IMG/VR virus record: IMGVR_UViG_3300044974_000778
Location: 1-40,383 of that record
Length of the DNA: 40,383 bases
Reading direction: 5' to 3' (one strand)
Source: a virus
The notes below the pieces were generated by a model. That model saw only the letters and a program-made list of their open reading frames with translations. It ran no database searches and had not been told where the DNA came from. Positions 4,052 to 36,084 of this stretch are shown piece by piece (the first letter of the stretch is position 1; each line of letters begins with the position of its first letter). A program made the translations under genes and the position numbers.

Positions 4052-4064
4052 ATAAAAAAAATAT

Positions 4065-4417: not shown

Positions 4418-4424
4418 TATTTAT
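4418..4424 (+). promoter_or_regulatory. TATTTAT motif upstream of the scaffold gene
   Basis: TATTTAT followed by A lies 23 bases before the scaffold ATG, a longer gap than at most other sites. The intergenic region is otherwise featureless AT-rich DNA. Confidence 0.45.
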
Positions 4425-4447
4425 ATGATAAATTAAATAATTTTTTC

Positions 4448-20900: not shown

Positions 20901-21493
20901 AGTATTTCTTGTATTTTTAATTTAAGTTCTTTTAAACTTGAAATTTTGTGTTCAAATTCAATATCCTTATTATAAACTGTGTTAAACTTAATAACCACTT
21001 TATCTTTGGGATGGTTTAATAATAGGTTAGGATTAGCAGTAAGTAAAACGTCTACTGAATCCCATAAAGAATTAATTGTGCTTTCACTATAAAATTTTAC
21101 AGACTCAACCAAGCATCCAAACTTAGAAATAAAAAATAACGAAGCTGGTTTTGATTTACCTATTTCATCTGAAACAATAAGAATGTCGTGTTCTTCTCTC
21201 ATGTCCAAATAAAAATCATTAAAATCTAAAAGACCAGATGGTTCAACCGAACCCGCGTGACCAAATATTTCCATTGTGTGTTCTTTATACAAAAAATCGT
21301 ATAACTCATTACTATCTCTAAATTTTAAATGTTTGGAAATATCTAATGAAGTTAATTCAGAAATGACCTCATATTTGAAATCATCTTCCTCTTCTTCTTT
21401 GAAAGGATTTTCAATGTACCATTTTTCGTACTCTTGTTGGATTTTTTTTAAAGTGTCTCTAAGTACTCCATTTAATTCAATACCTATTTTCAT
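20897..21493 (-). CDS. HAD-superfamily-like protein with altered catalytic motif
   Basis: The start MKIGIELNGVLRDT lines up with HAD motif I (normally DxDGV), but the two Asp positions are Glu6 and Asn8. Later DILIVSDEIGKSKPASLFFI resembles motif II and its following helix, and SVDVLLTANPNLL recalls the motif IV region. Active HAD phosphatases use the first Asp as nucleophile, so this protein is probably not a phosphatase and may bind a ligand or nucleotide instead. The length (198) fits small HAD nucleotidases of phages. It overlaps both neighbours by 4 bases. The fold assignment is moderate. Confidence 0.62.
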   Translation of the reverse strand: MKIGIELNGVLRDTLKKIQQEYEKWYIENPFKEEEEDDFKYEVISELTSLDISKHLKFRDSNELYDFLYKEHTMEIFGHAGSVEPSGLLDFNDFYLDMREEHDILIVSDEIGKSKPASLFFISKFGCLVESVKFYSESTINSLWDSVDVLLTANPNLLLNHPKDKVVIKFNTVYNKDIEFEHKISSLKELKLKIQEIL

Positions 21494-22224
21494 TCTTCGT
21501 ATCTTTCTAATATTTTTGAAATTAATGGATTTCTAACAATGTCTGTAGATTTAAATTCAAATACGCCAACATCATTCATATTTTGAAATTTTTGTAGTGC
21601 GTCCCACAATCCTGTGTGAGTTTTATCTTTGTGTCTATCAAATTGTTCCAAATCACCCGAGATAAAAAATTTAGAATTAAATCCAATTCTTGTTAATAAA
21701 AGTTTCATTTGACTCGGGGTTGAATTTTGAGCTTCCTCAAATATTAATATTGAATTATCAATATTCATCCCTCTCATGTAAGCCAAGGCAAAAACTTCGA
21801 TTGCCTCAATCTCTTTTAATTTTTCTCTAGATTCTTTTCCAATTATTTTATTTAACAAATAATATGATGGGAAAATATATGGGTCTAATTTTTCTTCAAC
21901 ACCACCAGGTAAACTACCTAATTTTTCTTCAGCTTCAACCGCTGGTCTTACTATGATTATTTTTTCATATGGTGTGTTTGGGTCGGCTAATAAATCTACC
22001 GCACATTTCATTGCGATATAACTTTTACCAACACCTGCTGGACCTGAACATATTGTAATTTGATTTGAAGATAATTTACTATAATATTCTTTTTGACTTT
22101 CTGATAAAAATTTTTCTTTTGTTTTTCGTTTAATTATTGAACAGATTTGCTGTTTCTTATTTCTAACTGGAACTTCGTCACTTGACAAAGTTGAGGTAGG
22201 TTTAGGTTTTAATACTTTACCCAT
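21490..22224 (-). CDS. phoH: PhoH-like ATPase
   Basis: PhoH proteins are P-loop ATPases common in phages and linked to RNA metabolism and phosphate stress; the exact phage role is unsettled. Walker A is GPAGVGKS (residues 61-68), Walker B is ILIFEEAQN (159-167), and the family stretch IIIVRPAVEAEEKLGSLPG lies at 90-107, with FFISGDLEQFDR at 187-196 as the sensor region. It is the C-terminal PhoH domain alone, preceded by a basic tail of 45 residues; no PIN domain is present. The gene starts 6 bases after the GDP-mannose epimerase gene and overlaps the HAD-like gene by 4. Confidence 0.9.
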   Translation of the reverse strand: MGKVLKPKPTSTLSSDEVPVRNKKQQICSIIKRKTKEKFLSESQKEYYSKLSSNQITICSGPAGVGKSYIAMKCAVDLLADPNTPYEKIIIVRPAVEAEEKLGSLPGGVEEKLDPYIFPSYYLLNKIIGKESREKLKEIEAIEVFALAYMRGMNIDNSILIFEEAQNSTPSQMKLLLTRIGFNSKFFISGDLEQFDRHKDKTHTGLWDALQKFQNMNDVGVFEFKSTDIVRNPLISKILERYEE

Positions 22225-22230: not shown

Positions 22231-23322
22231 TTATTTAATTTTATGTCTTTCAACATTTCCAATCTCTCTTTTGTAAATCGTTTCTCCATCTGGACTTTCA
22301 TAAATCCATTTAGTTTCTAATTCTTTTTTATCAACTTGTGATTTAATCCATTGATATGTTTTTTTAAGTCCTATAGAAAGTGGTTGACTAACTTCCCAAC
22401 CAACTTTTTCTCTATAAAGTTTGTTATCTGAATTTCTTCCTTGAACACCTAATGGACATTTGAAACCATACTTATCAATAAATTGTTGTCCTTCAATATT
22501 TTTGATTTCTATATCTTTATCTGAAATTGCAATTGCCATTCCTGCTAATTGATTAATTGTAACCATTTCTTCACTACCAATATTAACAGGACCAACAAAA
22601 TCACTCTCCATTAATCTCAATACCGCTTCAACACATTCATCAACGTATAAGAAAGAACGAGTTTGCATTCCGCTACCCCAAACCTCAATAACGTCTCCGT
22701 CTTTAGCTTCAGCAGCTTTTCTACACATTGCCGCTGGTGATTTTTCTCTACCACCTGTCCATGTACCTTGAGGTCCAAAGATATTGTGGAATCTTGCAAC
22801 TCTAACATCTAAACCGTAGTTTCTATTAAAAGCCAAGTATAATCTTTCTGAAAATAGTTTCTCCCATCCATATTCAGAATCAGGGTTAGCAGGGTAAGCC
22901 GATGATTCCTCACAATTTGGATTTTCAGGGTCTAACTGATTGTGTTCAGGGTACATACATGCTGATGATGAATAGAATACTTTACCCACTTTTTTCTTAA
23001 CACATTCTCTTACTACGTTAAGATTAATTGTTGCTGAATTATACATAACATCTGCATCGTGTTCACCTGTAAAGATATACAATGCTCCACCCATATCGGC
23101 AGCAAGTTGATATACTTCATCAACACCTTCTTCAATTACAAGTTCTACAACTTTAGGGTCTGTTAAATCTCCTAAAATAAATTCATGACAGAACTCGTCT
23201 TGAAAGAAGTATTCGTGTTTTTTAATATCACATACTCTTACGTGATTTCCTTCTTCTTTTAATCTTTTGGCAAGGTGTCCACCTATGAACCCTCCTCCGC
23301 CTAATACTACTATTTTTTTCAT
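22231..23322 (-). CDS. gme: GDP-mannose 3,5-epimerase
   Basis: This extended short-chain dehydrogenase converts GDP-D-mannose to GDP-L-galactose, using bound NAD. The residues that define GME rather than other NDP-sugar epimerases are visible: the GGGGFIGG loop (8-15), S120-A-C122, Y151-G-W-E-K155, GREK with Lys194, and GRNSDN with Arg296. In the characterised plant enzyme the matching Cys and Lys are the epimerisation acid/base pair. The stretches ADMGGA, RFHNIFGPQGTW and WGSGMQTRSFLYVDE also match. At 363 residues it is normal length with an extra C-terminal tail. It is flanked by glycosyltransferase-like and PhoH genes. Donor use by the GT10/GT11 enzymes is discussed in the findings. Confidence 0.9.
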   Translation of the reverse strand: MKKIVVLGGGGFIGGHLAKRLKEEGNHVRVCDIKKHEYFFQDEFCHEFILGDLTDPKVVELVIEEGVDEVYQLAADMGGALYIFTGEHDADVMYNSATINLNVVRECVKKKVGKVFYSSSACMYPEHNQLDPENPNCEESSAYPANPDSEYGWEKLFSERLYLAFNRNYGLDVRVARFHNIFGPQGTWTGGREKSPAAMCRKAAEAKDGDVIEVWGSGMQTRSFLYVDECVEAVLRLMESDFVGPVNIGSEEMVTINQLAGMAIAISDKDIEIKNIEGQQFIDKYGFKCPLGVQGRNSDNKLYREKVGWEVSQPLSIGLKKTYQWIKSQVDKKELETKWIYESPDGETIYKREIGNVERHKIK

Positions 23323-23331
23323 TGTTTAATT

Positions 23332-24234
23332 TTAATTCATTTTATATTCTAAGTATAGGTCATTTCCTTGAAAAATAACTTTCTTATTTGTACATTTATT
23401 TGGACTTCCAACGAACCATCCTAAGTTTGGTGGTACGTTAAGTGACTTAGAATAAATCACTTCTTTACCACAACATATTTTAAGTTTTAAAGGTAATTCC
23501 TCTTTAGTTATATTGATGAAATGTGCCTCATCGTTTGTTATAGATGTAATCTTCAATTTAGGTTTAGTGAAATCATTATACCTAATGTATTGTAAATCAA
23601 TTGGTATTTTATTAACCGATATATTGTGATTATCTAAATGATGTTTTAAGTTAACTTCATTTTGAGTTGTAAAATTAATGTCATCATTTTCAGACATCCA
23701 ATAATCTAATCGGTTCATATATACCTCCATTAGATTTCGAGGTCCAATTGCAAACCTATCGTTACATCCTCCAAAGTGGTCCTCTGACGGAGTTATTATA
23801 AATTCTCCCAAGGATTTCCAATTAAAAATACTTTTAAACTCCAAGTCAGGTCTTAATCTCATAACATAATCAAATGTCATGTTATTATCTTTCTCATATT
23901 CCTTAACCATATTGAATACAGATTGGAATTGTTTTAATTGATAGTAAATTAACTTTGGGTCGTTTTCACTATCAAGTTGATAATCTTGGTATTTGTATTT
24001 TGATTTTTGGTAACTTAAATCGGGGAGAACTGAGTCCTCCTCGATTTTAATTACTGATGATATTTTAAAAAAATCTGCGGGTATATTAATGGGTTTGTCT
24101 TCTTCTTTTGCAAAGGATGTGAAAAATTTTAACTTATAGTTTGAGTTAGTTAAAATCAAATTCTTAAAAATTGAAGGAAGGCATTTGTCAAAACTTCTGA
24201 ATTGCCCTGAAATACAAACCGCAACTGTTTTCAT
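23332..24234 (-). CDS. Glycosyltransferase-like protein (GQFR/RLRPDL type)
   Basis: The 300-residue product begins VAVCISGQFRSFDKCLPSIF and has YVMRLRPDL at 123-131. This pairing is seen in a family of putative GT-A proteins of bacterial surface-glycan and viral gene clusters. The Asp of RPD could be the metal-binding residue. The C-terminal 90 residues form a separate beta-rich domain with two Cys pairs (KICCGKE and SPNKCTNK), maybe for acceptor binding. I cannot name donor or acceptor. It shares one base with the start/stop of the upstream STELLO-like gene. Confidence 0.6.
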   Translation of the reverse strand: MKTVAVCISGQFRSFDKCLPSIFKNLILTNSNYKLKFFTSFAKEEDKPINIPADFFKISSVIKIEEDSVLPDLSYQKSKYKYQDYQLDSENDPKLIYYQLKQFQSVFNMVKEYEKDNNMTFDYVMRLRPDLEFKSIFNWKSLGEFIITPSEDHFGGCNDRFAIGPRNLMEVYMNRLDYWMSENDDINFTTQNEVNLKHHLDNHNISVNKIPIDLQYIRYNDFTKPKLKITSITNDEAHFINITKEELPLKLKICCGKEVIYSKSLNVPPNLGWFVGSPNKCTNKKVIFQGNDLYLEYKMN

Positions 24235-25169
24235 TAATTGAAATATTTTTGGTAGATGTCAAAATATTCAACCGTCTTTTCAGGTAGGATATTTCTATAG
24301 TCTGATAAGTTCTCTAATAAGTTTAGTGTTCCTCTATATCCAATTACCTCATTCTCCAAGTTTCTAACCAAGTCTTGAGGGTTTCTTGCTTGATATACCG
24401 ATGCTTTTGCAAATATAACAGAGTTCGGAAAATGATGTTGTAAGACATAGGACCCCCAAATGTCATCCATTCTACCTGTATAAGGAAAGACAGAGTAATG
24501 TTTAAGAACATCTCTGTGAATAAATGTATTTTGTGAGTTAAACGGTGTAAGTTGTTTTGTTGTGAAAGGTTCAAATGAGTTAAATTTTACGATTGGTTTT
24601 TTACTTAATCGACAAATTGCGTCGATGTCTGGGTCACCATCCCAGAATTCTGCTTGAATCATCGGTCTAATTTTTGTTTTACCTTTGTATTCAATGTTAT
24701 TTTTTACTTGAAGGTATTCGATTGGAAATCCTCTATGCCACAAGTCGTTATGTTCTGTTGTTGAAATCGCGTCAAAATAAGGACACGACAAATTTTCGTA
24801 TTCATCTACTTCAATTTCTTGACCCAGTAATATATTGTCACCCCAGAAATCATAAGGTATGTTGTCATCATCAACTGTTGCAATAATTTCTGCACCACTT
24901 TGATATGCGTAAACTAATCCAATATTTCTTCTTTGTATTGTTTTCCATCCAATAACCTCAGATAACTCAGGATATAATCTGTCTTGAGCTTCAGGATTAA
25001 GGTAAATTACGTTGTTATATTTTTCAGTTAAATCAACGTATGATTGGTGAGGAGTTTTTGTATCTCCAACAATTACAAATGTAAAATCTTTTTTATCTGC
25101 AATCTCACAAAATTTTATGGTTGCTTCGGTTGGTTCGTTAATCGTAGTTGTAATTATATATTTTTTCAT
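24234..25169 (-). CDS. STELLO/DUF288-like putative glycosyltransferase
   Basis: The 311-residue product starts with ITTTINEPTEATIKF, then VIVGDTKTP (33-40), QRRNIGLVYAYQSGAEII, and VDDDNIP (99-105). This order is the signature of the STELLO/DUF288 family: a VGD-KTP loop, an RKN-GYL helix and a DDDN metal site. Plant and animal members are Golgi-type proteins; here no transmembrane anchor is present, so it acts in the cytoplasm. The acceptor is unknown. Neighbours are a methyltransferase-like gene 1 base upstream and a GT-like gene overlapping by 1 base. Confidence 0.62.
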   Translation of the reverse strand: MKKYIITTTINEPTEATIKFCEIADKKDFTFVIVGDTKTPHQSYVDLTEKYNNVIYLNPEAQDRLYPELSEVIGWKTIQRRNIGLVYAYQSGAEIIATVDDDNIPYDFWGDNILLGQEIEVDEYENLSCPYFDAISTTEHNDLWHRGFPIEYLQVKNNIEYKGKTKIRPMIQAEFWDGDPDIDAICRLSKKPIVKFNSFEPFTTKQLTPFNSQNTFIHRDVLKHYSVFPYTGRMDDIWGSYVLQHHFPNSVIFAKASVYQARNPQDLVRNLENEVIGYRGTLNLLENLSDYRNILPEKTVEYFDIYQKYFN

Positions 25170-25170
25170 A

Positions 25171-25779
25171 TTAATAAACCAAATAAATGTGGTTTCCTTG
25201 TTCTGTGTTTATGATTGTATAATTTGGATTGATACTATGAAGAGCATCTTTAAATTCCTGTAAGGTTGGGAAGTTTCCTTGTCCTAAATCTTTACAGTCG
25301 TCAATTAACATAACGTGGTCGTTACGATTGCTTGCCTCTTTAATCGCGCCTAATTCTTCTCTTAATGGACCTTCTAACATACTGTGAGCATCTAATAGAA
25401 TAAAGAATCTTTCATCAGGTAATTCTTCTAATACAGATTTTAATACATCTCCTGAATTACCTTCCAAGAAAGTAAGGTTACCGTATTGTTCAGAAAGTTT
25501 TTGATATGATTCTCTATAACTTTTTCCATCGTAAGGATTACGGTCAGGAAATAATTCTACTGTGAATGTAACATCAAAATGTTCAGCCAAGAATATTGAA
25601 GTTCTTGCGTCATGAGTTCCTGTTTCAATTGCAAAATTTATTTCGTTTAAGTTTGGGATTTTGTCTTGGTACTGGTAAAGTAAACTAACAAATAAGTTAG
25701 GTATTGGTAATGATGTCTTATGTATGTCGGACATTTGTTCCCATCTACTGTCACCTGTATAATCTAAATTTAATTTCAT
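25171..25779 (-). CDS. Putative SAM-dependent methyltransferase
   Basis: The 202-residue product has a class I methyltransferase pattern: motif I AIETGTHDARTSIFLAEHF (50-68), an acidic TVELFPDR after strand 2 and LLDAHS (129-133) then VMLIDDCKDL after strand 5. It resembles enzymes that methylate sugars or macrolides, and its position between a dehydrogenase and the STELLO-like gene suggests a role on the glycan or its precursor. Motif I lacks the usual Gly-rich GxGxG, so catalytic activity is not certain. Confidence 0.6.
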   Translation of the reverse strand: MKLNLDYTGDSRWEQMSDIHKTSLPIPNLFVSLLYQYQDKIPNLNEINFAIETGTHDARTSIFLAEHFDVTFTVELFPDRNPYDGKSYRESYQKLSEQYGNLTFLEGNSGDVLKSVLEELPDERFFILLDAHSMLEGPLREELGAIKEASNRNDHVMLIDDCKDLGQGNFPTLQEFKDALHSINPNYTIINTEQGNHIYLVY

Positions 25780-25780
25780 A

Positions 25781-26809
25781 TTAGTTATTTTTTATAATAC
25801 ATTTTAGGATTTGGTCTTTATAATCCGCAACAGTATCAAATGCTTTTTGAATATCGTTAAATTCAAATTCATGGGAAATAATACCCTCAATCTCTTTGTC
25901 TCCTGTGTAGTTCTTAACACAGTCATCCAAAGTTTGATTCGACCTTCTTACGTTTTTGATTGTTAATTCTTTGGTTCTCATTCTGTGTGGGTTGTAGGTT
26001 ACAAAATCCGCTTCAGGTATCCCGATTAATGCAACTTTACCATTAACCGCTGCCACATTAATACAACCATCAATAGATTCTGTTGTACCTCCTGTGTCGA
26101 TAGCCATGGTTGTTCCCATTCCACCAGTAAGTTCTTTGATTTTTCTTGCGTAGTCATCGGCAAGTAAAAATGATTCGGTTGCTCCGAAATCTTTTGCGAA
26201 TTTGGTTCGGTAAGGTAGTTTGTCAATCATGAAAATATCTTTAACTCCTGCCTTCTTTAAAATTGAAAACATACATAAACCAATTGGACCCGCACCAAAG
26301 ATGGTTGCAGATTCAGTAAATTTAGGTTCAATTAAATTTGCGGTGTGAAGACAAACTCCAAGAGGTTCAAGTAAACTTGCCAAGTTGAATGACATTGAAT
26401 CGGGTATCTTTGCCAATTGTAGTTCTTCAACCACAACATAATCGGCAAACGCTCCTTGAGAATTTGCTCCCATGAAAGTTCCCTTATCACATAAGTTATG
26501 TTTACCTCTTAAAGACCAATAAGATGTGATACAAGGCATCCCAGGTTCAACTGCGACTCTATCACCATCTTTGAATTTTTTAGACCCGTTGGCGTCAACT
26601 ATGACCCCCGCAGGTTCATGTCCCATATACATTGGGAGAGGATTTTTAAAGGAGCCTAATCCTCCTTCTTTAAAGTAATGCATGTCGGAACCACAGATTC
26701 CAACAGATTTCATTGCGACAAGTATTTGACCTTCCTTTAATTTTGGAATTTCTTCCTCAAAAATCTCAATCTTTCTTATCTGAGTTAGTTTTGCTACTCT
26801 GTTCTTCAT
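25781..26809 (-). CDS. Zinc-type MDR dehydrogenase lacking half of its structural zinc site
   Basis: This NAD(P)-dependent polyol or alcohol dehydrogenase is like sorbitol/xylitol or L-iditol dehydrogenases. The catalytic zinc set is intact: Cys39 (GICGSD), His64-Glu65 (GHEP) and Glu148. The Rossmann stretch is FGAGPIGLCM near 171. The structural zinc site should have four Cys; here Cys93 and Cys107 remain, but the two between (96 and 99) are Ser. A 44-base overlap with the upstream aminotransferase gene is supported by the normal N-terminus here. In context it may oxidise a sugar hydroxyl to the ketone that the aminotransferase uses; the substrate is unknown. Confidence 0.8.
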   Translation of the reverse strand: MKNRVAKLTQIRKIEIFEEEIPKLKEGQILVAMKSVGICGSDMHYFKEGGLGSFKNPLPMYMGHEPAGVIVDANGSKKFKDGDRVAVEPGMPCITSYWSLRGKHNLCDKGTFMGANSQGAFADYVVVEELQLAKIPDSMSFNLASLLEPLGVCLHTANLIEPKFTESATIFGAGPIGLCMFSILKKAGVKDIFMIDKLPYRTKFAKDFGATESFLLADDYARKIKELTGGMGTTMAIDTGGTTESIDGCINVAAVNGKVALIGIPEADFVTYNPHRMRTKELTIKNVRRSNQTLDDCVKNYTGDKEIEGIISHEFEFNDIQKAFDTVADYKDQILKCIIKNN

Positions 26810-27929
26810 AATCGATTAAAGCTTGTTTTAAAACATCACAAATGTAATCGACCTCTTTTATTGATAACTCAGGGTATAGAGGAGGGCATACGTGATGTTT
26901 ACAATAATAATCAGTATTTGGTAAATTTACAGAGGAAAATTGCTCTTTATATAAAGGTTGTTGATGAACGGGGATTCTATATACCTCTCCCGTTAATGAA
27001 ATACCTCTTTCTTTACAATATTTTTTTAACCAAGCACCGTCCATAGGGGTAATAACAATTGCCTTATAGTTCGCACAAATACCCTTACCTTTTTGTTTGA
27101 TAACTGTGTATTTGGTCTTTTCTAAATTTTTTCGGTATCTCTCTAAAAGATAACTTCTTTGTTCAATTCTGTCATGAACTCTATCACATTCTATACTACC
27201 TAATAATCCAGTAAATTCGTTAATCTTAAAGTTGTTTCCATTTGGTGCGACAATAACACCCGCATCCTCAAGATGTCTACCAAAGTTCTTTAATGATTTC
27301 ATTTTTTCATAAAGTTCTTTGTTATTTGTAGTAATCATACCACCTTCACCTGTTGTCATAACTTTTGTTGGGAAGAATGAGAAGGTACCTACATCACCAA
27401 TAACTCCTGCTCGTTGAGTACCTTTTAAAGAAAAGTGGGCGTGGGCCGCGTCTTCAACTAATGGAACATTATGTTTTTTACATAACTGAACAATCTTATT
27501 AATATCGTGTGATATGATACCACCAATGTGAACAATAATAACCGCACCTGTTTCCGAAGTTATTTTAGATTCCAAATCTTTCAGACAAATTGAAAATGAT
27601 TGCGATTCCATATCTAATAATTCAACAATACCTCCAGCATTTGTAACTGCAACACTAGTTGCGAAAAATGTATTTGACGGCATCAAAACTTTTTTACCAT
27701 ATACTCCAAGAGACTTTAACGCTAACTCAATAGCGGTGGTACCATTTGAACAGGCTAACGCATATTTTGCATCACTCATCTTGGCAAATTTATCTTCAAA
27801 CTCTTTAACGTATTTGGATTCACCTAATGGTCTGTCAGAAGACAATATATCCCAAGAACCTCTTAGGAATTTAACTTTGGATTTGAAATCAAATTTCAAT
27901 CTAAAAATTGGAATACTTAATTTTCTCAT
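26766..27929 (-). CDS. DegT/DnrJ/EryC1/StrS-family sugar aminotransferase
   Basis: This PLP enzyme aminates a keto-sugar nucleotide or cyclitol. Motifs: ACSNGTTAIELAL (59-71), MPSNTFFAT, VEDAAHAHF with Asp160 pairing with the cofactor ring nitrogen, and SFFPTKVMTTGEGGM with Lys189 forming the Schiff base. The length (387) is normal. It overlaps the downstream dehydrogenase gene by 44 bases and the upstream acyltransferase gene by 4. Dehydrogenase, aminotransferase and acyltransferase in a row imply production of an N-acylated amino sugar. Which carbon and which sugar cannot be read from the sequence. Confidence 0.85.
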   Translation of the reverse strand: MRKLSIPIFRLKFDFKSKVKFLRGSWDILSSDRPLGESKYVKEFEDKFAKMSDAKYALACSNGTTAIELALKSLGVYGKKVLMPSNTFFATSVAVTNAGGIVELLDMESQSFSICLKDLESKITSETGAVIIVHIGGIISHDINKIVQLCKKHNVPLVEDAAHAHFSLKGTQRAGVIGDVGTFSFFPTKVMTTGEGGMITTNNKELYEKMKSLKNFGRHLEDAGVIVAPNGNNFKINEFTGLLGSIECDRVHDRIEQRSYLLERYRKNLEKTKYTVIKQKGKGICANYKAIVITPMDGAWLKKYCKERGISLTGEVYRIPVHQQPLYKEQFSSVNLPNTDYYCKHHVCPPLYPELSIKEVDYICDVLKQALIDYEEQSSKTNSDKKD

Positions 27930-28564
27930 AATTTATAAACTTTTTTAACTTTTGATGGTATACCTGCAACCATAACATTTGGTGGGACATCAGTTATTAC
28001 AACTGAACCCGCGGCAACAATAGAGTTATCACCAACTGTAACTTTAGGAATTATAGTACTTCCCGCACTAATAAAACAATTCTCACCAATATGAACATAA
28101 CCACATAGAGTTGTATTTGGAGATATTTGTGAATAATCCCCAACATGACAATCGTGTTCTACAACAGAACCCGTATTAATAATTGTACAATCTCCAATAT
28201 GAGAGTCGATGTGAACAACCGCGTTGGGACAAACCAAATTACCATGTCCAAACCTTTTGGATTCGACAACAGCAGTTGGGTGAATACAATTTATTGGTTC
28301 TTTCTTTGTATGTTCTTTGATTAACTCGTAATGTTTTTTTCTTAACAAATTGTCTCCCGTTGCAATAAAATATTCTATGTTAGGGGACTTAAGATGTTCT
28401 AAGGATTTTTCAACCGTTGAATATAAACGGTTGGTTATAATTTCGTCGGCATAACATTCGACATAATATAGTACGTGTCTCGGGTGAGTTATTTTAAAAA
28501 TGTTTGTTGCAATTTTTGCACCTGCCGAGCCACCGACAATTATTATTGATTTTGGTTCGCTCAT
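27926..28564 (-). CDS. Hexapeptide acyltransferase, PglD/NeuD-like
   Basis: This is a left-handed beta-helix sugar acetyltransferase that uses acetyl-CoA, acting on an amino (or hydroxyl) group of a nucleotide sugar. Residues 1-85 form a small Rossmann-like domain (SIIIVGGSAGAKIATNI). Residues about 95-205 are hexapeptide turns (VVHIDSHIGDCTIINTGSVV, then ISPNTTLCGYVHIGENCFIS), with the conserved EHDCHVGDY stretch where a His is the usual base. The length (212) fits PglD. It is coupled by 4-base overlaps to the aminotransferase and to the glycosyltransferase-like gene, so it probably acetylates the product of the aminotransferase. Confidence 0.82.
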   Translation of the reverse strand: MSEPKSIIIVGGSAGAKIATNIFKITHPRHVLYYVECYADEIITNRLYSTVEKSLEHLKSPNIEYFIATGDNLLRKKHYELIKEHTKKEPINCIHPTAVVESKRFGHGNLVCPNAVVHIDSHIGDCTIINTGSVVEHDCHVGDYSQISPNTTLCGYVHIGENCFISAGSTIIPKVTVGDNSIVAAGSVVITDVPPNVMVAGIPSKVKKVYKL

Positions 28565-29391
28565 ATAATTTCTATTGGTAAATCTTCGTTATACATACCC
28601 CAATTTTCTGAATTAGAGGTTTGTGTGAAATCTCGAATAATTTCGTTTTGGTCAGACATTGGAGGAACTGATTCGTCCTCATCTCTATCGCCACCTTTAC
28701 CGTGATTTAAATGAAAAATGTAATGGTCTAAAATTTTAATGTCTGAATAGAATGACGATTTCTTCATTACGTTTGTGTCAATACCACATCCAAATAAAAC
28801 TGATTCTTCAAACCCTTTCATTTTAAACCAAATATCTCTATGTCCAATCTGATAATCTCCACAACAATTAATTAAAGACCAACGGTCGTTTTCACTTTCA
28901 AATAGTTCTTTAGCCCTAAATGAATCTCTACGACTATTAAGGTGATTATATAGTGATTGATAATCGTTGAATGATAAATGAAGTTTTTCATCCACGTCCC
29001 TTCTTTGTACTGTATAAAACGAACCTGTGTCAAGAGTATTAAAATCCAGTGGAGTTGTCACTATGTCTATGTTAGTAGATACAATAAAGTCATTCTGAGC
29101 TCGTCTAACCCCTACATTACGACTGATTGATTCAATCATGTTATATTGATTAAGTTCGGGGTACTTTTCTTTTAATAGTTCTTTTGGAACTTGTATGTGT
29201 TTTAATTTACCTGTGTGGGGTATATTATGTTTTATGTTTGAAATAACACCTTCACCATTAACGGTCTTCCAATCAACAAAAATAACCTCATCATGATTTT
29301 CAATCAGGGAGGTTAATGCCATGGTGGTTCTTTTATGTAAATTTCCACCATAGTTATCGTTTCTTGATGATAGTACAACAGAACTCTTCAT
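28561..29391 (-). CDS. Glycosyltransferase-like protein, GT-A type
   Basis: The 276-residue product begins SSVVLSSRNDNYGGNLHKRT, a GT2-like start, and has ESISRNVGVRRAQNDFIVST (88-106) followed by NIDIV, which takes the place of the DxD metal site (Asn-Ile-Asp). GFEESVLFGCGIDTNVM in the C-terminal half resembles the galactosyltransferase-type ending. The first Asp of the DxD is Asn, so metal binding may differ. It overlaps its neighbours by 4 and 1 bases. The donor is unknown. Family placement is moderate. Confidence 0.6.
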   Translation of the reverse strand: MKSSVVLSSRNDNYGGNLHKRTTMALTSLIENHDEVIFVDWKTVNGEGVISNIKHNIPHTGKLKHIQVPKELLKEKYPELNQYNMIESISRNVGVRRAQNDFIVSTNIDIVTTPLDFNTLDTGSFYTVQRRDVDEKLHLSFNDYQSLYNHLNSRRDSFRAKELFESENDRWSLINCCGDYQIGHRDIWFKMKGFEESVLFGCGIDTNVMKKSSFYSDIKILDHYIFHLNHGKGGDRDEDESVPPMSDQNEIIRDFTQTSNSENWGMYNEDLPIEII

Positions 29392-30044
29392 TAAATTTTC
29401 TTATATAATTTATCACAAAACATTTTACCTGTCACCGAACTTCTATGGTGAGTACTGTCTTTAATAAACTCAAATCCTTTTGAAACTATGTATTCGTTTA
29501 CCTTTCTATCAAAGTCAGACCCTAAATCGGATACTTCAATAATAATGTAGGTAAAATTTTTAATCTCATCTCCAATACCCTCTAATACCTGTAATTCAGC
29601 ACCTTCAGTATCTATGTTTAATAAATCGTAGTTTTTGAAATCAAACCTTTCTCTTTCAAACAAGGTTTTAATTGTTATTGTTTTTGTTTTAACAATATTA
29701 CCACTTTGTTCTATTAGTGAACTTGAATCAGGATTTGATGACGGACAATAAAGATTCATTTCCAAATCGTCTTCATTCCATGCAGCTAAGTTGTATATCT
29801 TTTGACCAAACTGTTCAATCTCATTTTTAAACCTTTGGTACGAATTTGGGTTCGCCTCCAAGAAAATAGAATTATCACCACAATAATGAGAGTATTGTTT
29901 TGCTTCCCAAGCATCCCAAGCACCAATATGTAAAACACCTTTAGGTGTCCAATCTAAATTATGAAACAAACCTTTATTGTTTCCAAAATTTTCAGTTCCA
30001 ACTGGATTGGGGTCTTTATCCCAAAACGCTCCGAATAGGCTCAT
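29391..30044 (-). CDS. FkbM-family methyltransferase
   Basis: This enzyme would methylate an oxygen of a sugar or other small group using SAM. Visible are LHIGAWDAWEAKQY near 38-51 (motif I; FkbM members have a similar G-N-G), IFLEANPNSYQRFK with the acidic residue for the SAM ribose, and LLNIDTEGAELQVLEG (141-156), the FkbM hallmark. The length (217) is normal. It is one base from both its neighbours. FkbM genes are frequent in glycan clusters, where they cap or modify sugars. Confidence 0.8.
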   Translation of the reverse strand: MSLFGAFWDKDPNPVGTENFGNNKGLFHNLDWTPKGVLHIGAWDAWEAKQYSHYCGDNSIFLEANPNSYQRFKNEIEQFGQKIYNLAAWNEDDLEMNLYCPSSNPDSSSLIEQSGNIVKTKTITIKTLFERERFDFKNYDLLNIDTEGAELQVLEGIGDEIKNFTYIIIEVSDLGSDFDRKVNEYIVSKGFEFIKDSTHHRSSVTGKMFCDKLYKKI

Positions 30045-30045
30045 G

Positions 30046-30717
30046 TTATTTTCTTTTTAATATTATTTCTTCAGTTGCGTGACCAACGTTAGTAATTTGT
30101 ACGATTTCCCAATCCGTCGCATTTTCACGTATCCATTTTTCACTTATAAAAACAACTCTAATTATTTCTCTACCGTTCCAATTTTCAAAATTAGCTTGTT
30201 CGTTCCCGTCATGTTTATGTTTATTATCGTCATTTAACATTCCATCATACATCACAAAAATACATCCTGGATTTGCCACTTCCGCTAAATTTTTAAAAAC
30301 ATCTGACTTAAATTCTAAAGGTATGTGAGGAAGGACTGCGTTCGTAAACATGAAATCAAATTTAATTGGAAACTTATTTTCAAAACTTTCAGTTAAGTCC
30401 GATTGAATAAATTTTAAATTTTCAGTCTCATATTGTTTAGCATAATTAATTCTATTATTAGATAAATCGATTCCATAAGTCTTATCAAAAGTTTCACTTA
30501 AAACTCTGGTGAAATATCCTTGAGCACATCCAACGTCTAAACAATTCTTATTAACATTTTTATCTATTAAGTTTTTAATTTTTGGAATTAAATTTTCTTT
30601 CATCCAACTGACGTTTCTTTCTGGGTAACCTGTTTCAGAACCAGGGGTTCCTTCAGGGTTAATCAAACTTTCGTCTTCAAAATAATTTTTTAATGCTTCT
30701 TTAATGTTGTGTATCAT
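30046..30717 (-). CDS. Class I SAM-dependent methyltransferase
   Basis: The Rossmann SAM-binding loop is CLDVGCAQGYF (59-69), followed by YGIDLSNNRINYA with the acidic residue for the ribose, and FDFMFTNAVLPHI as motif post-II, where the His is typical of the Methyltransf_11 group. The length (223) fits. It is 1 base upstream of the FkbM gene and 1 base from DUF6165. The substrate is probably a glycan or its precursor; small-molecule and protein substrates cannot be excluded. Confidence 0.78.
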   Translation of the reverse strand: MIHNIKEALKNYFEDESLINPEGTPGSETGYPERNVSWMKENLIPKIKNLIDKNVNKNCLDVGCAQGYFTRVLSETFDKTYGIDLSNNRINYAKQYETENLKFIQSDLTESFENKFPIKFDFMFTNAVLPHIPLEFKSDVFKNLAEVANPGCIFVMYDGMLNDDNKHKHDGNEQANFENWNGREIIRVVFISEKWIRENATDWEIVQITNVGHATEEIILKRK

Positions 30718-30718
30718 A

Positions 30719-31102
30719 TTATTGGTATTTTACATATTCTTTCACCTCTCTAATTTCAGAATCGGTGATTGCGTTAATTTCATTCTTTAATCTGAATCTT
30801 TCATCGTTTGTGAAATATACTTTTCTTGCTTGGTCTATAAATTCACCTTCAAATCTTTTTTCAGTTTCAATGACTCTTAATCTATCTTCAACATCCCACA
30901 ATTTTTCATTAATATCACATAACTGGTGATACAATGCTTCAATGTCTGGACTATCTAAATAAATTGAGGATAAATTATACAATAGTTCAAATTCTTTATT
31001 TACTAAAACTAACTTTTCTTCGTTAGTTATTTTTGTTTTTTTTACGTGTAGGATTGATAATTTGTCAATTAATTCTCCAACACTAACTGGTACGTAAATC
31101 AT
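30719..31102 (-). CDS. DUF6165-like protein
   Basis: The 127-residue product starts MIYVPVSVGELIDKLSILHV and continues with KKTKITNEEKLVLVNKEFEL, then a helical acidic body and a C-terminal NAITDSEIREVKEY. The GELIDK-SIL--K pattern is that of DUF6165, found in bacterial glycan clusters and phages beside glycosyltransferases. Its function is unknown; helical and without a membrane segment, it may be a partner of a transferase. It overlaps the GT9-like gene by 4 bases. Confidence 0.72.
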   Translation of the reverse strand: MIYVPVSVGELIDKLSILHVKKTKITNEEKLVLVNKEFELLYNLSSIYLDSPDIEALYHQLCDINEKLWDVEDRLRVIETEKRFEGEFIDQARKVYFTNDERFRLKNEINAITDSEIREVKEYVKYQ

Positions 31103-31803
31103 TTTATATAAGTTAAATCTTTATCAAACATATGTTCCACCTGATGAAAACTCGGAGGATTGTGCCTTGAATAAACGGTTACGTTTTTCAATCCTAGTTT
31201 ATTTATGATGTACAATATCGAAGTTTCAACCGTATAGATATGTTTGGCTTTTAATAACAATCCTATCCAATCAAATAGGTTGTCCCACCCAAGATACGAC
31301 ATCTCTACAGAGTTTTCATATTCACCCATGTGTGGACAAGGTTTAGAATCTGGCGGAGACCCAAACATTCTATTAACAAAAACAAATTCTTTATCGTTAA
31401 CACCAAAATGGTCAATTAACTTTTGTTCTCTCTCCAAATTTCTTTCAAACGTGAAATGTTCAACCCAGTCACTAAAATCAATATCAAGTAATTTATACTT
31501 AGCGTGCATTACAGGACCGTTATAATGTCTATCGAAATGTTGAATAGGTAAATAAACATCATTTACGTTAATCATCATAGGTTTAGAATAACCTTCCATG
31601 TAGATATTTCTGTGTGGAAAATCTGCATTTTCATTCACGAAGATTAAATTATCAATTTTGATATAATCTTTAATGAACTCAAACTGAGGGATTACTGGCC
31701 ATATCACAAGATATCCTTTTGAGATATAATCCTTAGCTATTTTTTGTGTGAAAAAAATATCACCAATTCCAGCGGGTTGCCTTATCAAACAAATTTTAGA
31801 CAT
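31099..31803 (-). CDS. GT9-like (heptosyltransferase-type) glycosyltransferase
   Basis: The start ICLIRQPAGIGDIFFTQKIA has the GIGD phosphate-binding loop of the GT9/GT-B fold. The C-terminal half has AKHIYTVETSILYIINKLGL, where GT9 enzymes show a similar D(T/S)---H-A--L. At 234 residues it is shorter than typical GT9 enzymes (about 320-350), so a reduced acceptor domain is likely. It overlaps the GT10 gene by 8 bases. The donor is probably an ADP- or GDP-sugar by family, but this is not certain. Confidence 0.62.
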   Translation of the reverse strand: MSKICLIRQPAGIGDIFFTQKIAKDYISKGYLVIWPVIPQFEFIKDYIKIDNLIFVNENADFPHRNIYMEGYSKPMMINVNDVYLPIQHFDRHYNGPVMHAKYKLLDIDFSDWVEHFTFERNLEREQKLIDHFGVNDKEFVFVNRMFGSPPDSKPCPHMGEYENSVEMSYLGWDNLFDWIGLLLKAKHIYTVETSILYIINKLGLKNVTVYSRHNPPSFHQVEHMFDKDLTYIK

Positions 31804-32614
31804 ATTCTTTTAAATAGTTTTCAAAAATCCAATCATCCAACACACTATACTTTTGAACTCTATCGTAGTTGTCTTTGATTGCGTCCATTTTTGACTGATA
31901 CAACTCTTCCGTTAGTTTAGAAAGGTCAAACGTACCGTCAAAAAATATTATCCCATCAGGGTTAAAATATTCTACAACTTTCTTCGTTCCCATATAAACT
32001 GGTATAGTTCCTGTTGCAAAGCAATCCAATATTTTTTCAGTAAAGTAGGTATCATATGTATCGTTCTCAACCGCGAATGAAAACATATAATCTTTCAACC
32101 CAACCTCTTTGTTTGGTATTTCTTTAATACCTCTACCGAATACATCAATCTTATCAATGTTGTTCATTGCAAAATCGTGTCTGATTTCGTGTTGACGAGT
32201 CCATCTTTTATTAGATGTAATCATAGACGCCATCTTTGTTTTTGGGTGAATACCAAAATCTTTGATATAACTACCGTAAGCTGGTGTCCATTTGAACTTC
32301 GGATGTAATGAAAGTAATTCGTCATTGTGAGTCCAAATCTGTTCAAATGTGTTAAGTACATCATCTAAATTTGATTTGATGTTATCAATTGCTCCACCGT
32401 CAAACTTTCTTGATTCAATAACCCAAAGGAATTTTTTCTTTGCACCATTGTCAACTTTATGGTCTTCGATTCCCTTGAATAGGTCGTTATCCAAATATAC
32501 TGAAATTGGGTTGTCGTAACTATTAAAACACCATTCAATCAATTGAGGTGCTTTGTTTGCTGTAGAACCTTTGTCGTGAGCAAAGTTCCTTGATAACATG
32601 TTTAATTTAACCAT
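31796..32614 (-). CDS. GT10-family alpha-1,3/4-fucosyltransferase-like enzyme
   Basis: GT10 enzymes add L-fucose from GDP-fucose to the 3 or 4 position of a sugar. The donor-binding motif is visible: YMFSFAVENDTYDTYFTEKI (176-194), then LDCFATGTIPVYMGTKKVVE and YFNPDGIIFF (217-225). Family members have FSIAFENS---YVTEKI---F-AG-IPIYWG. The N-terminal half (FLWVIESRKFD) is the acceptor part. The length (272) is short but complete. GDP-L-galactose, the product of the phage epimerase, is the 6-hydroxy form of GDP-L-fucose and could serve as donor. It overlaps the GT11 gene by 13 bases. Confidence 0.8.
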   Translation of the reverse strand: MVKLNMLSRNFAHDKGSTANKAPQLIEWCFNSYDNPISVYLDNDLFKGIEDHKVDNGAKKKFLWVIESRKFDGGAIDNIKSNLDDVLNTFEQIWTHNDELLSLHPKFKWTPAYGSYIKDFGIHPKTKMASMITSNKRWTRQHEIRHDFAMNNIDKIDVFGRGIKEIPNKEVGLKDYMFSFAVENDTYDTYFTEKILDCFATGTIPVYMGTKKVVEYFNPDGIIFFDGTFDLSKLTEELYQSKMDAIKDNYDRVQKYSVLDDWIFENYLKEYV

Positions 32615-33411
32615 CCGTCTTCGTATTTAACTTCTAAAACAGTCCAGTATGGTTCATAAATATCTTTATAATTTCTTGGTCCCCTTGGTCCAAACCATAT
32701 TGAAGGTGCTACTATTTTTTTATTAGGGGTTTTATTTAAGAAACTTCCCCACCATGAAAATGTGGAGTTAACAATAATGTTGTTTTTACACAACGACATC
32801 AACCACATTTCTTTATAATCTTCATCCTCAACGTAAGTTACGTTTTCAAACTTAAGGTTTTGTTTTACCCATTCTTTGTCATCACTGAAAACAAAAACGT
32901 GAGAATATTCTCCGATTTCTTTAACGGCTCTCTCAATATATTTTTCAGTTGCGATTGGGTGGATATCAGGATTCATAAAACAATCACCTCTTCTAATGTG
33001 AACAGACAGTGTATTTTCTTGTTTTAATTCAGGGTGTTTTTCCATCATTTCACTTATGAATTCTTCTGTAGGTGAGAATATGTTTCTGATTCTATCATCA
33101 TGACCTAAGAAGTTTTTTGAACTTTGAAAGTATCCGTCAAAAACGGTATTCCCTTCTTTAACAAACACATCAATGTATTCCCAAGGACCTTCGCTAACTT
33201 TTTCAAATCCATCTATATTATCAACAAATTTCATATTTCTGAAAATGTTTTTTAGGTAGTTTTCAGTTTGTCTACCTTGCATTGGAGTCCAAGACCTTGG
33301 TACAAATACCACTTCTCTGTTATGTGTAATTCCTTGTGCAATTGCGTGAGCGGCTTGAAAAATCTGATTACCCAATCCTCCCATTAAATTACATGATATT
33401 AAGTTACTCAT
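32602..33411 (-). CDS. GT11-family alpha-1,2-fucosyltransferase-like enzyme
   Basis: GT11 enzymes transfer L-fucose from GDP-fucose in alpha-1,2 linkage. All the family blocks are present: GGLGNQIFQ (11-19), VHIRRGD (137-143, the phosphate/guanine-binding stretch), VFVFSDD (172-178) and NSTFSWWGSFLN (215-226). The length (269) is close to the bacterial norm of about 290. It overlaps the GT10 gene by 13 bases and the GT2 gene by 4. No GDP-fucose synthesis genes (gmd, fcl) occur in the window, so the donor comes either from the host or from the phage epimerase as GDP-L-galactose. Confidence 0.88.
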   Translation of the reverse strand: MSNLISCNLMGGLGNQIFQAAHAIAQGITHNREVVFVPRSWTPMQGRQTENYLKNIFRNMKFVDNIDGFEKVSEGPWEYIDVFVKEGNTVFDGYFQSSKNFLGHDDRIRNIFSPTEEFISEMMEKHPELKQENTLSVHIRRGDCFMNPDIHPIATEKYIERAVKEIGEYSHVFVFSDDKEWVKQNLKFENVTYVEDEDYKEMWLMSLCKNNIIVNSTFSWWGSFLNKTPNKKIVAPSIWFGPRGPRNYKDIYEPYWTVLEVKYEDGWLN

Positions 33412-34136
33412 CTAATTAACTTGTTTAATTTTGTTTTATTTCTGATTATGTTCGCACATCTTTCCTGTTCTTGATGACCTCCTCCAGTAGCACTACCTGG
33501 TTTGTGGTCATTGTATGGTGATTCTGCATTATAAACATAATACAATTCGGGTAAGAATCTATAATTTTCTTCACCTGCTAATTCTAAAAGCGAAAAGGTG
33601 TATGCAACATCCGCGGCGGATTTGAAGTATTCTCCATTATCGTCTTTTAAATAATTCTTTGGGATTGATTTCCAAAGAAACGATTTCCAAGTTCTTAGGT
33701 GAGAAAATCTAAATGCGTCTTTACGTACTGTGTTTGGGTTGCATTTTTGTGAAAAACCTGAGTCACCGTTTGTATACATAAAAGACCCGTTGGTTAACCA
33801 AACCTTTTTGTCGGAATATACTTTACGAATATCCCCAACAACATTTGAATTCAATAAAAAATCATCCCCATCTAATTCAATAACAATATCTTCATCATCA
33901 AAAGTGGTGATTAACTCATCAAGGTTTTTTAGTTTGAATTTTTTTTCTTCATTAATGATTAAATTAAATCTTTCGTCCTCTTGAATTAAAGATTTAATTA
34001 CATCTACCGAAGTGTCAGTAGATACGTCATCAATAATATAAACTTTAAAATTTGTGTCTTGTTGAGACTTTAAAGTTCTAATGCAATTTTTAATATACTT
34101 TTCTGCGTTCCAAACGCAAACAACAAATTTTATCAT
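33408..34136 (-). CDS. GT2-family glycosyltransferase
   Basis: This is a single-domain GT-A transferase. The N-terminal strand reads FVVCVWNAEKYIKNCIRTLK, the nucleotide-binding part has IIDDVSTDTSVDVI (34-47), and the metal site is IELDGDDFLL (86-95). Family enzymes have the same order. The length (242) is normal. It lies between the GT11 gene and the UDP-glucose dehydrogenase-like gene, each with a 4-base overlap. A UDP-glucuronate donor is possible from the adjacent dehydrogenase, but donor specificity cannot be read from the motif. Confidence 0.85.
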   Translation of the reverse strand: MIKFVVCVWNAEKYIKNCIRTLKSQQDTNFKVYIIDDVSTDTSVDVIKSLIQEDERFNLIINEEKKFKLKNLDELITTFDDEDIVIELDGDDFLLNSNVVGDIRKVYSDKKVWLTNGSFMYTNGDSGFSQKCNPNTVRKDAFRFSHLRTWKSFLWKSIPKNYLKDDNGEYFKSAADVAYTFSLLELAGEENYRFLPELYYVYNAESPYNDHKPGSATGGGHQEQERCANIIRNKTKLNKLIR

Positions 34137-35293
34137 TGTAAATTAATAACAAACCCTTCAGGGGTTGTGCCTGGTTTATAGAACTTAAGTTTACCATTGT
34201 ATTTTTCACTTAGGTCGGATAGTTGTTTAACCACTGGGTCAATTTCAATAACATTCAAATAATACCCTTCTTCTAATAGGTCTAAACATAATTTAAATTG
34301 TTGAGACTCTTCTAAAATATCGGTGCCCCTTTTATAGGTTACGTAATTCATAACAAATGGGATAGTCTTATCTGGGTTTTGTTTAATGAAAATGTTTTTC
34401 AAAAACAAAGAGTGTTCTTTATTAAATTCATCTACAGTTAAAGGTAAGTTTAACTCCATTCCAAGTTCTTTAGCGTAGTGTCCTAACGCCCTATTATCTC
34501 TTGGCAGACAAGGTCCACCAAACCCAAAACCATATTTCATGTATTTTTTACCAACTCTTGTGTCACCACCAATTGCGTTTAATACTGAGTCAATTTCATA
34601 CTCTAAATTTGATTTTGTTAGAATGTCACCCATCATATTTGCATAACTAATTTTAGTTGTTAAAAAACAGTTAATACCTATTTTAGTAATTTCCGCGGCT
34701 TTACAAGACATTACATGAGCATTGACGGGTGTAGTCTGTACTTTACCATAAATTTGAATTAATTCGTTAGCAAGTTCTTGATATTCAGTACCTATCAAAA
34801 CTATGTCCGATTCTTCAAGACCTTTTACTATTTCCCCTTGAGCGATAAACTCTGGGTTATACGCAACCTGTATACTGAACATAGAAAGTTTTTTCTGAAT
34901 TTGCTCAACATCTCCAGGATTGGTTGTGCATCCAACTATAAATTTTTTATTGAATATTGGTATCTCTAATTTAGATGCTTCGTAAAAATCATTGGCAACT
35001 TCAAACACTGCGGATGTATCATAACTTCCGTCAGTTGTTGATGGAGTTGCAACAAATGTGAATATAACATCACAATTCTCAATAATTTCAATATTATTTG
35101 TTGTTGCACTAAACTCATAAACTTCAAATAACATTTTTTGTATTAAAGGTTCGTTAGTGTCACAAATACCTTTGTTTAAATTGTATACGTAATCCTCTCT
35201 TTTATCAGATACTATTACAGAATAACCCGCCTTTTCACAAAGAAGTGCAAAAGTTAATCCTAGCCTTCCCGCACCAATAACTCCTATTTTCAT
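34133..35293 (-). CDS. UDP-glucose 6-dehydrogenase-family enzyme
   Basis: The family oxidises C6 of an NDP-hexose to the acid (UDP-GlcA or GDP-ManA, for example) with two NAD. The N-terminal Rossmann loop is GVIGAGRLGLTFALL (4-18). The middle has YNPEFIAQGEIV with Glu149, and NCFLTTKISYANMM with conserved Lys and Asn. The catalytic Cys262 lies in GFGGPCLPRD. The length (386) is a little short. It overlaps NadE by 4 bases and the GT2 gene by 4. Which NDP-sugar it uses is uncertain; UDP-glucose or GDP-mannose are the main candidates. Confidence 0.85.
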   Translation of the reverse strand: MKIGVIGAGRLGLTFALLCEKAGYSVIVSDKREDYVYNLNKGICDTNEPLIQKMLFEVYEFSATTNNIEIIENCDVIFTFVATPSTTDGSYDTSAVFEVANDFYEASKLEIPIFNKKFIVGCTTNPGDVEQIQKKLSMFSIQVAYNPEFIAQGEIVKGLEESDIVLIGTEYQELANELIQIYGKVQTTPVNAHVMSCKAAEITKIGINCFLTTKISYANMMGDILTKSNLEYEIDSVLNAIGGDTRVGKKYMKYGFGFGGPCLPRDNRALGHYAKELGMELNLPLTVDEFNKEHSLFLKNIFIKQNPDKTIPFVMNYVTYKRGTDILEESQQFKLCLDLLEEGYYLNVIEIDPVVKQLSDLSEKYNGKLKFYKPGTTPEGFVINLQ

Positions 35294-36084
35294 ATAATTT
35301 CGTTCTCTTTTAAATCAAAAACTGGTATGGATACCATTTTGTGTTTATTCTTTTTATTAAAGTTTAAATAAATTTCTACAATATTGTATTCTTTTTCACT
35401 GTATGATAACTTATCCACACCATACTCCATAGCCCATTCAAGTTCTTCATATGTCGCTCCAATTTGGGTTTCATCAACTCGGTTGTCATCCCATAACCCA
35501 TCCGTTGGTTCGGCGTTGACTATTTCTTCACAAACCCCTAAATAACGACCTAAGTTTCTAACCTCTGTTTTGTATAGGTCGGCAATTGGAGAAATGTCTA
35601 CACCACCGTCGCCATATTTTGTATAAAAACCAACACCAAAATCCTCAACTTTATTTCCAGTACCAACAACGATACCTCCTTTAGATGATGCAATTTGATA
35701 TAAAGTAATCATTCTTAATCTTGATTTGGTGTTAGCAAATCCTAATTCAGAATTATAATCTTTACGGAAAACAGGGTGAGATTTAAATTCTTCAAATGTT
35801 TTTGATAGGTCAACGTGTAGACCAATAACATTTTGTTTATACTTCGATGATAATTCAGAAATATGTTTTTCTGAAAGCTCGGTATTTTTTGGGGTTGAGT
35901 TTAACGGCATTCCAACAACTATGGTTGGTATTCCTGTTTTAGCACATAATGTTGACACTACTGCAGAATCAATTCCACCTGAAACACCAACTACTAATGT
36001 TTTTATATTGTTTTCTTCAACGTAGTTTTGTACCCAAGTTTGTATTTGATTTGATAAATTTTCATAATCAATAATTCGGTTCAT
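35290..36084 (-). CDS. nadE: NAD synthetase (ammonia-dependent type)
   Basis: It converts nicotinate adenine dinucleotide to NAD with ATP and ammonia. Motifs: the ATP pyrophosphatase loop SGGIDS (35-40), VGTGNKVEDFGVGF (140-153) and KYGDGGVDISPIADLYKTEV (156-175), all near-diagnostic for NadE. The length (264) matches the glutamine-independent form, with no glutaminase domain. It sits inside the glycan island, with a 1-base overlap to the bifunctional transferase gene and a 4-base overlap to the dehydrogenase gene. It could feed NAD to several NAD-dependent sugar enzymes encoded here, or counter host NAD depletion. Confidence 0.92.
   Translation of the reverse strand: MNRIIDYENLSNQIQTWVQNYVEENNIKTLVVGVSGGIDSAVVSTLCAKTGIPTIVVGMPLNSTPKNTELSEKHISELSSKYKQNVIGLHVDLSKTFEEFKSHPVFRKDYNSELGFANTKSRLRMITLYQIASSKGGIVVGTGNKVEDFGVGFYTKYGDGGVDISPIADLYKTEVRNLGRYLGVCEEIVNAEPTDGLWDDNRVDETQIGATYEELEWAMEYGVDKLSYSEKEYNIVEIYLNFNKKNKHKMVSIPVFDLKENEII

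Follow-up and report, generated by a model that had tools for sequence, protein, structure and literature searches.

A stretch of viral DNA, IMG/VR record IMGVR_UViG_3300044974_000778 (40,383 bp, hereafter the window), carries a cassette of sugar genes next to phoH. Directly upstream of phoH lies the gene of a predicted GDP-mannose 3,5-epimerase (GME), and the same strand encodes two glycosyltransferases of families GT10 and GT11 together with a dehydrogenase and an NAD synthetase (Table 1). GME epimerizes GDP-mannose at C3 and C5 to yield GDP-L-galactose, which differs from GDP-L-fucose by its 6-hydroxyl. The window comprises the whole record, yet only a fragment of the virus genome. Its T4-type major capsid protein is best matched in the phage collection by those of a huge phage, Microcystis phage Mel-JY01 and Flavobacterium phage immuto, at 42-46% identity across roughly half the protein. 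A 118,268-bp contig derives from the same virus, being 99.98% identical to window positions 11493-40383 in the pieces compared. Genomes of window relatives reach 317-326 kb, so that much of this phage's genome lies out of sight if it is equally large.

Table 1. Genes of the sugar cassette and its phoH flank in the window
Feature	Position	Strand	Basis and remarks
phoH	21490-22224	-	PF02562 212 bits (cut-off 27); lies immediately downstream of the GME slot, which gmd fills in sister phages
GDP-mannose 3,5-epimerase (GME), 363 aa	22231-23322	-	Solved relatives, fold, six catalytic residues
GT10-family (fucosyltransferase-type) enzyme, 272 aa; proposed L-galactosyl/L-fucosyl transferase	31796-32614	-	PF00852 43 bits
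GT11-family (alpha-1,2-fucosyltransferase-type) enzyme, 269 aa	32602-33411	-	PF01531 88 bits; overlaps the GT10 gene
UDP-glucose/GDP-mannose dehydrogenase family enzyme	34133-35293	-	PF03721/PF00984; TIGR03026 205 bits, over cut-off; a frequent companion of the cassette
NH3-dependent NAD synthetase (nadE-type)	35290-36084	-	TIGR00552 188 bits (cut-off 64); PDB 3fiu 110 bits; paired with the dehydrogenase

Identity of the epimerase and the transferases

The five top PDB sequences for the window epimerase are all GMEs (326 to 314 bits). The best of them is the Arabidopsis enzyme (2c59; E-value 2.8e-96, 326 bits), with which 161 of 315 aligned residues are identical (51%), and the best chain of another kind is a UDP-glucuronate decarboxylase at 95.5 bits. 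A preliminary description made from the DNA letters had credited the protein with the full GME catalytic set, and all six residues do map onto the plant enzyme: S120, C122, Y151, K155, K194 and R296 align with Arabidopsis S143, C145, Y174, K178, K217 and R306. All 96 phage rows (the window plus L002-L096; 85 distinct sequences) and all 80 bacterial rows have the same six residues. This covers both the serine and YxxxK motif of short-chain dehydrogenases/reductases (S120, Y151, K155) and the catalytic Cys/Lys pair with the conserved Arg (C122, K194, R296). The NAD-binding motif GxxGxxG, or GxxGxxA, is likewise present in all 96 phage rows (G8, G11, G14). Five phage Fcl rows carry His at the GME Lys position and Lys (four rows) or Arg (one row) at the Arg position, so that K194 sets the window enzyme apart from Fcl. 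The same residues were used by Gevaert et al. for bacterial and plant GME, there called GM35E (PMC6678494; here and below, papers are cited from the accessible parts of their text). An AlphaFold2 model of the protein (predicted local distance difference test score, pLDDT, 80.4) finds GMEs as its 14 best Foldseek PDB chains at a template modeling (TM) score of about 0.75, with low confidence in part of the active-site region (135-145, 188-192). The Methylacidiphilum fumariolicum enzyme (PMC6678494) shares both catalytic residues and fold with the window protein, as does 2c59. By every test of sequence and fold that was run, the epimerase is a GME, and its predicted activity is that of the family.

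Several other identities were considered. As an Fcl, the protein scores about 107-108 bits on the fcl model against a cut-off of 500 and has Lys rather than His; the cut-off alone decides little, being reached by no phage fcl. Gmd and UDP-xylose synthase are ruled out by the PDB matches, NCBIfam scores and catalytic residues, and a chance open reading frame (ORF) by the at least 597 IMG/VR stretches that encode a relative of the window GME. As for ascorbate synthesis, no further step was recognized in the Pfam and NCBIfam tables of the scanned cassette ORFs.

Both transferase genes named in the preliminary description proved real, each exceeding its Pfam cut-off of 23.9 bits. The GT11 sequence has no convincing match in the PDB. 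Its AlphaFold2 model (pLDDT 90) remotely resembles NodZ, FUT8, Arabidopsis FUT1 and POFUT1 in Foldseek (TM score about 0.5), all of them fucosyltransferases. In its H-x-R-R stretch, which we take to be the GT11 family motif, H138 and R140 are invariant and R141 is almost so. GT10 weakly matches fucosyltransferases in the PDB, which make up five of its six matches at E-values of 0.1 or below; the best is the alpha-1,3-fucosyltransferase 2nzw (E-value 3.4e-7).

Two suppliers in one slot before phoH

The genes gmd and fcl, which provide a two-enzyme supply of GDP-L-fucose in other phages, had been reported missing from the window. Profile searches agree: the window has no gmd match at an E-value of 1e-40, and its fcl-model matches at 1e-20 are confined to the GME itself (107 bits). 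The preliminary description had also foreseen that these genes might lie elsewhere in the phage; the 118,268-bp contig likewise lacks any gmd match, and the fcl model matches nothing there but the GME.

Relatives of the window GME abound in other phages. At least 37 records of the phage collection, mostly Synechococcus and Prochlorococcus phages, match it above 300 bits (60 listed of 130 matching). The set searched for gmd, fcl and transferases comprised 63 records: 46 from IMG/VR (the window and 45 others picked by length from 80 loci, themselves the best 80 of the at least 597 stretches), 15 cyanophage GME records hand-picked as representatives of the 37 (14 complete genomes and one 149-kb single-cell contig) and two controls devoid of GME. 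GT11 is present in 47 of the 61 GME records, including 15 of 15 cyanophage records, and in neither control; GT10 is present in 30 of the 61. The gmd model passes its cut-off of 415 bits in three GME records (S-SCSM1, G004 and G030; one of the 15 cyanophages), and the other 58, window included, are without it. Short-chain dehydrogenases/reductases in G003, G045, W10 and W12 reach 164-180 bits on the gmd model, far below the cut-off. None of the 63 records reaches 500 bits on the fcl model; the top three scores (455, 231 and 224 bits) are those of the three gmd records, followed by G003 (186 bits), G006 (183 bits) and G045 (153 bits). The gene next after GME is a GT11 or GT10 in nine of the 15 cyanophage records. 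In the IMG/VR loci this neighbor is mostly unlabeled, because phoH or another small gene commonly follows GME, and upstream content was used instead.

Four IMG/VR records of 118-234 kb (G037-G040, loci L057-L060) contain GME without GT10 or GT11, and the GME product may go elsewhere there.

Among the matches listed for GT11, an incomplete sample (two listings, each 60 of 102) in which GenBank and RefSeq copies are counted apart, 97 phage records divide into 33 with GME only, 54 with gmd only, two with both and eight with neither. The two with both suppliers are two records of one phage, S-SCSM1. Counted by supplier among the matches listed, GT11 is present in 35 of 37 GME records and 56 of 71 gmd records, the two GME records without it being MH319723 (13.6 kb) and MH319757 (74 kb, with GT10). 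The eight with neither supplier are Synechococcus phage B23, two huge phages, one ACG-2014f genome (KJ019150, whose gmd may lie beyond the matches listed) and four fragments of 5-23 kb, including AG-345-E08, which has an fcl-like gene beside its two GT11s. MH319729 shares the organism name AG-345-D19 with a GME-bearing contig.

A sample of the window's clade anchored on phoH, and so not selected by GME, also shows the alternation. Its best 80 loci were dereplicated to 54, of which 42 exceed 18 kb; one locus of the sample (L187) is the window's own virus. Twenty-one of the 42 loci combine GME with GT11 or GT10 and seven combine gmd with these transferases, while five have GME alone, three gmd alone and six none of these genes. 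Loci end 10 kb from phoH, a distance that the window GT11 just exceeds, and the GME-alone class may reflect truncation in L188 and L229. All 28 transferase-bearing loci thus have exactly one supplier; among the 42, neither a transferase without a supplier nor both suppliers together occurs, and the six supplier-less loci are all devoid of GT11 and GT10 (Fisher p = 5.7e-4 for transferases occurring only with a supplier, kinship ignored). Across all 54 loci the corresponding numbers are 21, 7, 10, 4 and 12. The phoH-sample gmd proteins have gmd as their best NCBIfam family in 10 of 10 cases (381-416 bits against a cut-off of 415, passed by one of them; the runner-up family stays at or below 142 bits). 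An fcl with the Cys/His pair accompanies nine of the 10 gmd loci and none of the 26 GME loci within the 10-kb flanks.

The position of the two suppliers also coincides. Every one of the 26 GME loci has the end of GME 0-73 or 382-411 bases before phoH; the end of gmd lies 1-27 or 408-475 bases before phoH in nine of 10 gmd loci, and at 1,840 bases in the tenth (L244). These matching distances indicate that GME and gmd share one slot, separated from phoH by one small gene at most. Cyanophages use a similar but not identical location: in S-SM2, S-SSM7 and P-SSM2, GME or gmd lies in the stretch that follows the T4-GC 249/250 genes. GME or gmd is thus found in the same place before phoH in the window's clade and in comparable places in Kyanoviridae.

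Proposed donor supply for GT11 and GT10

It is fairly probable that the window holds a phage glycan cassette in which GME supplies GDP-L-galactose as the donor of GT11 and GT10, in replacement of GDP-fucose. Host GDP-mannose would be converted to GDP-L-galactose by the single phage GME, so that one gene would do the work of two. GT11, probably with GT10, would then transfer L-galactose, and sister phages would transfer L-fucose derived from gmd and fcl. The target could be a virion protein or a host surface glycan, both being possible. The gmd-fcl cassettes of P-SSM2, S-CAM7, S-SRM01 and ACG-2014f occupy a comparable genome place and contain the same transferase families as the window, and differ from it in their two-enzyme GDP-L-fucose supply.

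Precedents for such donor use come from eukaryotic fucosyltransferases, of which the plant xyloglucan enzyme belongs to another family, GT37. In vitro, L-galactose transfer is documented for FUT8, Arabidopsis FucTA and the xyloglucan enzyme of Arabidopsis (PMC8787198, PMC4935801). Arabidopsis mur1 has lost a gmd gene, and L-galactose partly replaces L-fucose in it (PMC8787198, PMC4935801), its fucosyltransferases using GDP-L-galactose in vivo (PMC8787198); the earlier assertion that plant fucosyltransferases resort to L-galactose when fucose is lacking is documented on both counts (PMC8787198). What is a makeshift in the mutant would be a selected cassette in the phage. Characterized GMEs serve other ends: the plant enzyme acts in ascorbate and cell wall synthesis (PMC8787198, PMC6678494), and bacterial GM35E is thought to act in the synthesis of lipopolysaccharide or antibiotics (PMC6678494). 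A pairing with GT10 or GT11, as in the window, is not mentioned for them in the accessible text of these two papers.

Phage GMEs are common and partly described. The GME of cyanophage S-SCSM1 was predicted by Wang et al. in 2022 to make GDP-L-galactose/L-gulose (PMC9602691), and a later paper repeats the gene name (PMC10665884); phage gmd alone is mentioned in PMC12542629 and PMC7003362. S-SCSM1 also has gmd, fcl and several fucosyltransferases (PMC9602691). Its gmd and fcl stand directly before GME, so that fucose is the obvious donor there, whereas the window is without gmd. The other listed cyanophage GMEs are mostly annotated as nucleotide-sugar/UDP-glucose epimerases or NAD-dependent epimerases/dehydratases. 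A literature search, with most subscription journals and bioRxiv outside it, yielded in the text accessible to it nothing on GME replacing gmd/fcl or on phage L-galactosylation. The pathway proposed in the preliminary description consequently gains from the GME identity, from the alternation of GME and gmd with GT11/GT10 in two phage groups and from the fucosyltransferase precedent; its claim to be undescribed was too strong in view of S-SCSM1. What the literature search did not bring up is the pattern of GME in place of gmd together with GT11/GT10.

A bolder version of L-galactose transfer, possible rather than probable, holds that two T4-like phage groups each assembled a dedicated L-galactosylation cassette, with GME and specialized GT11/GT10, that alternates, in one region of the genome, with an L-fucose cassette. 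On the GT11 tree the supplier label is clustered, with six changes for gmd against 14.9 in shuffles and none of 500 shuffles as low. In the window's clade, no gmd-class GT11 exceeds 45% identity to a GT11 of the GME class, and the corresponding maximum for GT10 is about 36%. Fifteen GT11s of GME loci compare with that of the window at 54-89% identity (nine) or 26-36% (six). This pattern, taken with the closer GT11s of the two classes in Kyanoviridae (below), fits partial donor specialization, promiscuous transferases with exchangeable supply, or plain cassette inheritance. The GME tree, unrooted and with many forks open, was built from phage and bacterial rows only, the plant GME and Fcl being left out for their long branches. 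Its cyanophage rows form one starred group, and Bacteroidota rows are interspersed in the window's group, an arrangement suggestive of repeated exchange with hosts.

The chief rival explanation is that the GDP-L-galactose, or GDP-L-gulose, made by GME goes to another transferase of the cassette and that GT11 and GT10 use host GDP-L-fucose. We regard it as unlikely, although it draws on several of the observations that weigh against L-galactose as the donor. Thirteen of the 46 IMG/VR GME records, eight of them longer than 100 kb, have neither GT11 nor GT10, which implies other uses or partners of GME. In the complete genome of phage B23 (L179), GT11 heads the sugar cassette and whole-record searches find neither GME nor gmd, so that a host donor can suffice. 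Bacteria with GME are mostly without the transferases: 42 genomes, drawn from the 80 bacterial GME loci and including many draft metagenome assemblies, yield gmd over the cut-off in 17, GT11 in four and GT10 in one, every transferase-bearing genome has gmd, and none of the 25 without gmd has GT11 or GT10. In Kyanoviridae, gmd-class GT11s reach 44-65% identity to GME-class ones, so that the cyanophage transferases do not separate cleanly and a neat donor specialization looks doubtful. The window also encodes further glycosyltransferases that could take up the GME product. What reliance on host fucose leaves unexplained is the alternation of GME and gmd in one slot, the consistent presence of a supplier with GT11/GT10 in the 42 phoH loci, and the nine cyanophage loci in which a transferase directly follows GME.

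Other unfavorable points concern the separation of the two supplies. GME and gmd occur together in four GME loci, namely S-SCSM1, G004, G030 and, by a custom profile, L064; three of them also have fcl. G003 (107005-107910, L267) and G006 (3962-4870, L268), relatives of the window, encode nearly the same Fcl-like protein, Cys/His pair included, and have no gmd over the cut-off. The protein may depend on Gmd from the host or have another sugar as its substrate, and GDP-fucose could thus still be made there with host Gmd. The absence of gmd/fcl from GME loci is therefore common, not universal. Among the matches listed, 15 of the 71 gmd records are without GT11, and near-identical ACG-2014f genomes swell the gmd count.

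A second rival would have the neighboring dehydrogenase oxidize the GME product to a GDP-L-uronate, which the NAD-synthetase-like enzyme might then amidate, and this would be the sugar transferred. The dehydrogenase directly abuts GME in five loci (L028, L031, L040, L065, L076) and NAD synthetase does so in L062, and the pair lies near GME in S-SSM7, P-TIM68, Sf-FS3 and S-SCSM2R. We nevertheless consider this very improbable: the dehydrogenase looks ordinary for its family, UDP-glucose dehydrogenases outscoring GDP-mannose dehydrogenase among its PDB matches, the NAD synthetase looks like an ordinary nadE over its cut-off, and S-CAM9, Bellamy, S-PRM1 and S-8S55 combine GME and GT11 with no match to the pair profiles within 10 kb. 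A small protein annotated as NAD synthetase in three of these four phages is unmatched by the profile and is described as GIY-YIG-like in one record. Hardly any weight falls to the view that the epimerase is a short-chain dehydrogenase/reductase with a different real substrate, set in a mosaic of sugar genes without a common pathway, for although phage sugar cassettes are mosaic and we know of no experiment on any phage GME, the signature is complete, the top matches by sequence and fold are GMEs only, and the gene alternates with gmd and fcl.

As a rule, phage sugar cassettes are catalogued as auxiliary genes with no product attached; for the present one a product can be named, and it is testable. 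Since GME alternates with gmd and fcl, nature offers matched cassettes that are predicted to differ in a single chemical feature. These phages would furnish candidate natural L-galactosyltransferases and a comparison set for the donor specificity of GT11 and GT10. If L-galactose transfer is correct, a natural switch from fucose to L-galactose would alter a surface epitope by a single hydroxyl, for instance as a means of evading recognition, and such glycan epitope switching is a testable reason for phages to carry these genes.

Neighboring genes and related loci

The dehydrogenase and NAD synthetase genes (34133-36084) overlap by four bases, and the pair is kept near GT11 or GME across diverse phages (L026, L036, L065, L076, S-SSM7, P-TIM68, Sf-FS3 and S-SCSM2R). 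The synthetase may supply NAD to the dehydrogenase or, in a bolder reading, amidate the uronate that the dehydrogenase produces. Three overlapping genes at 25781-28564 encode a zinc alcohol dehydrogenase, a DegT-type aminotransferase and a NeuD-type acetyltransferase. The trio looks like an oxidize-aminate-acetylate route to an acetamido sugar, with no dehydratase, and recurs in eight of the 26 GME loci and none of the 10 gmd loci of the phoH sample.

Within 8 kb of bacterial GMEs, GT11 occurs in three of 80 loci and a weak GT10 in one. In one of these loci, on a Nomurabacteria contig (L136), GME starts at 3411 and is directly followed by GT11 from 4383, with a UDP-glucose dehydrogenase near and no gmd at the locus; this arrangement looks like the phage GME-GT11 pairing.

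No Rfam family reaches its gathering score in the window. A wcaG RNA is annotated just upstream of the sugar cassette in S-SCSM1 and S-SCSM2R (L083 8896-8982; L088 8214-8311).

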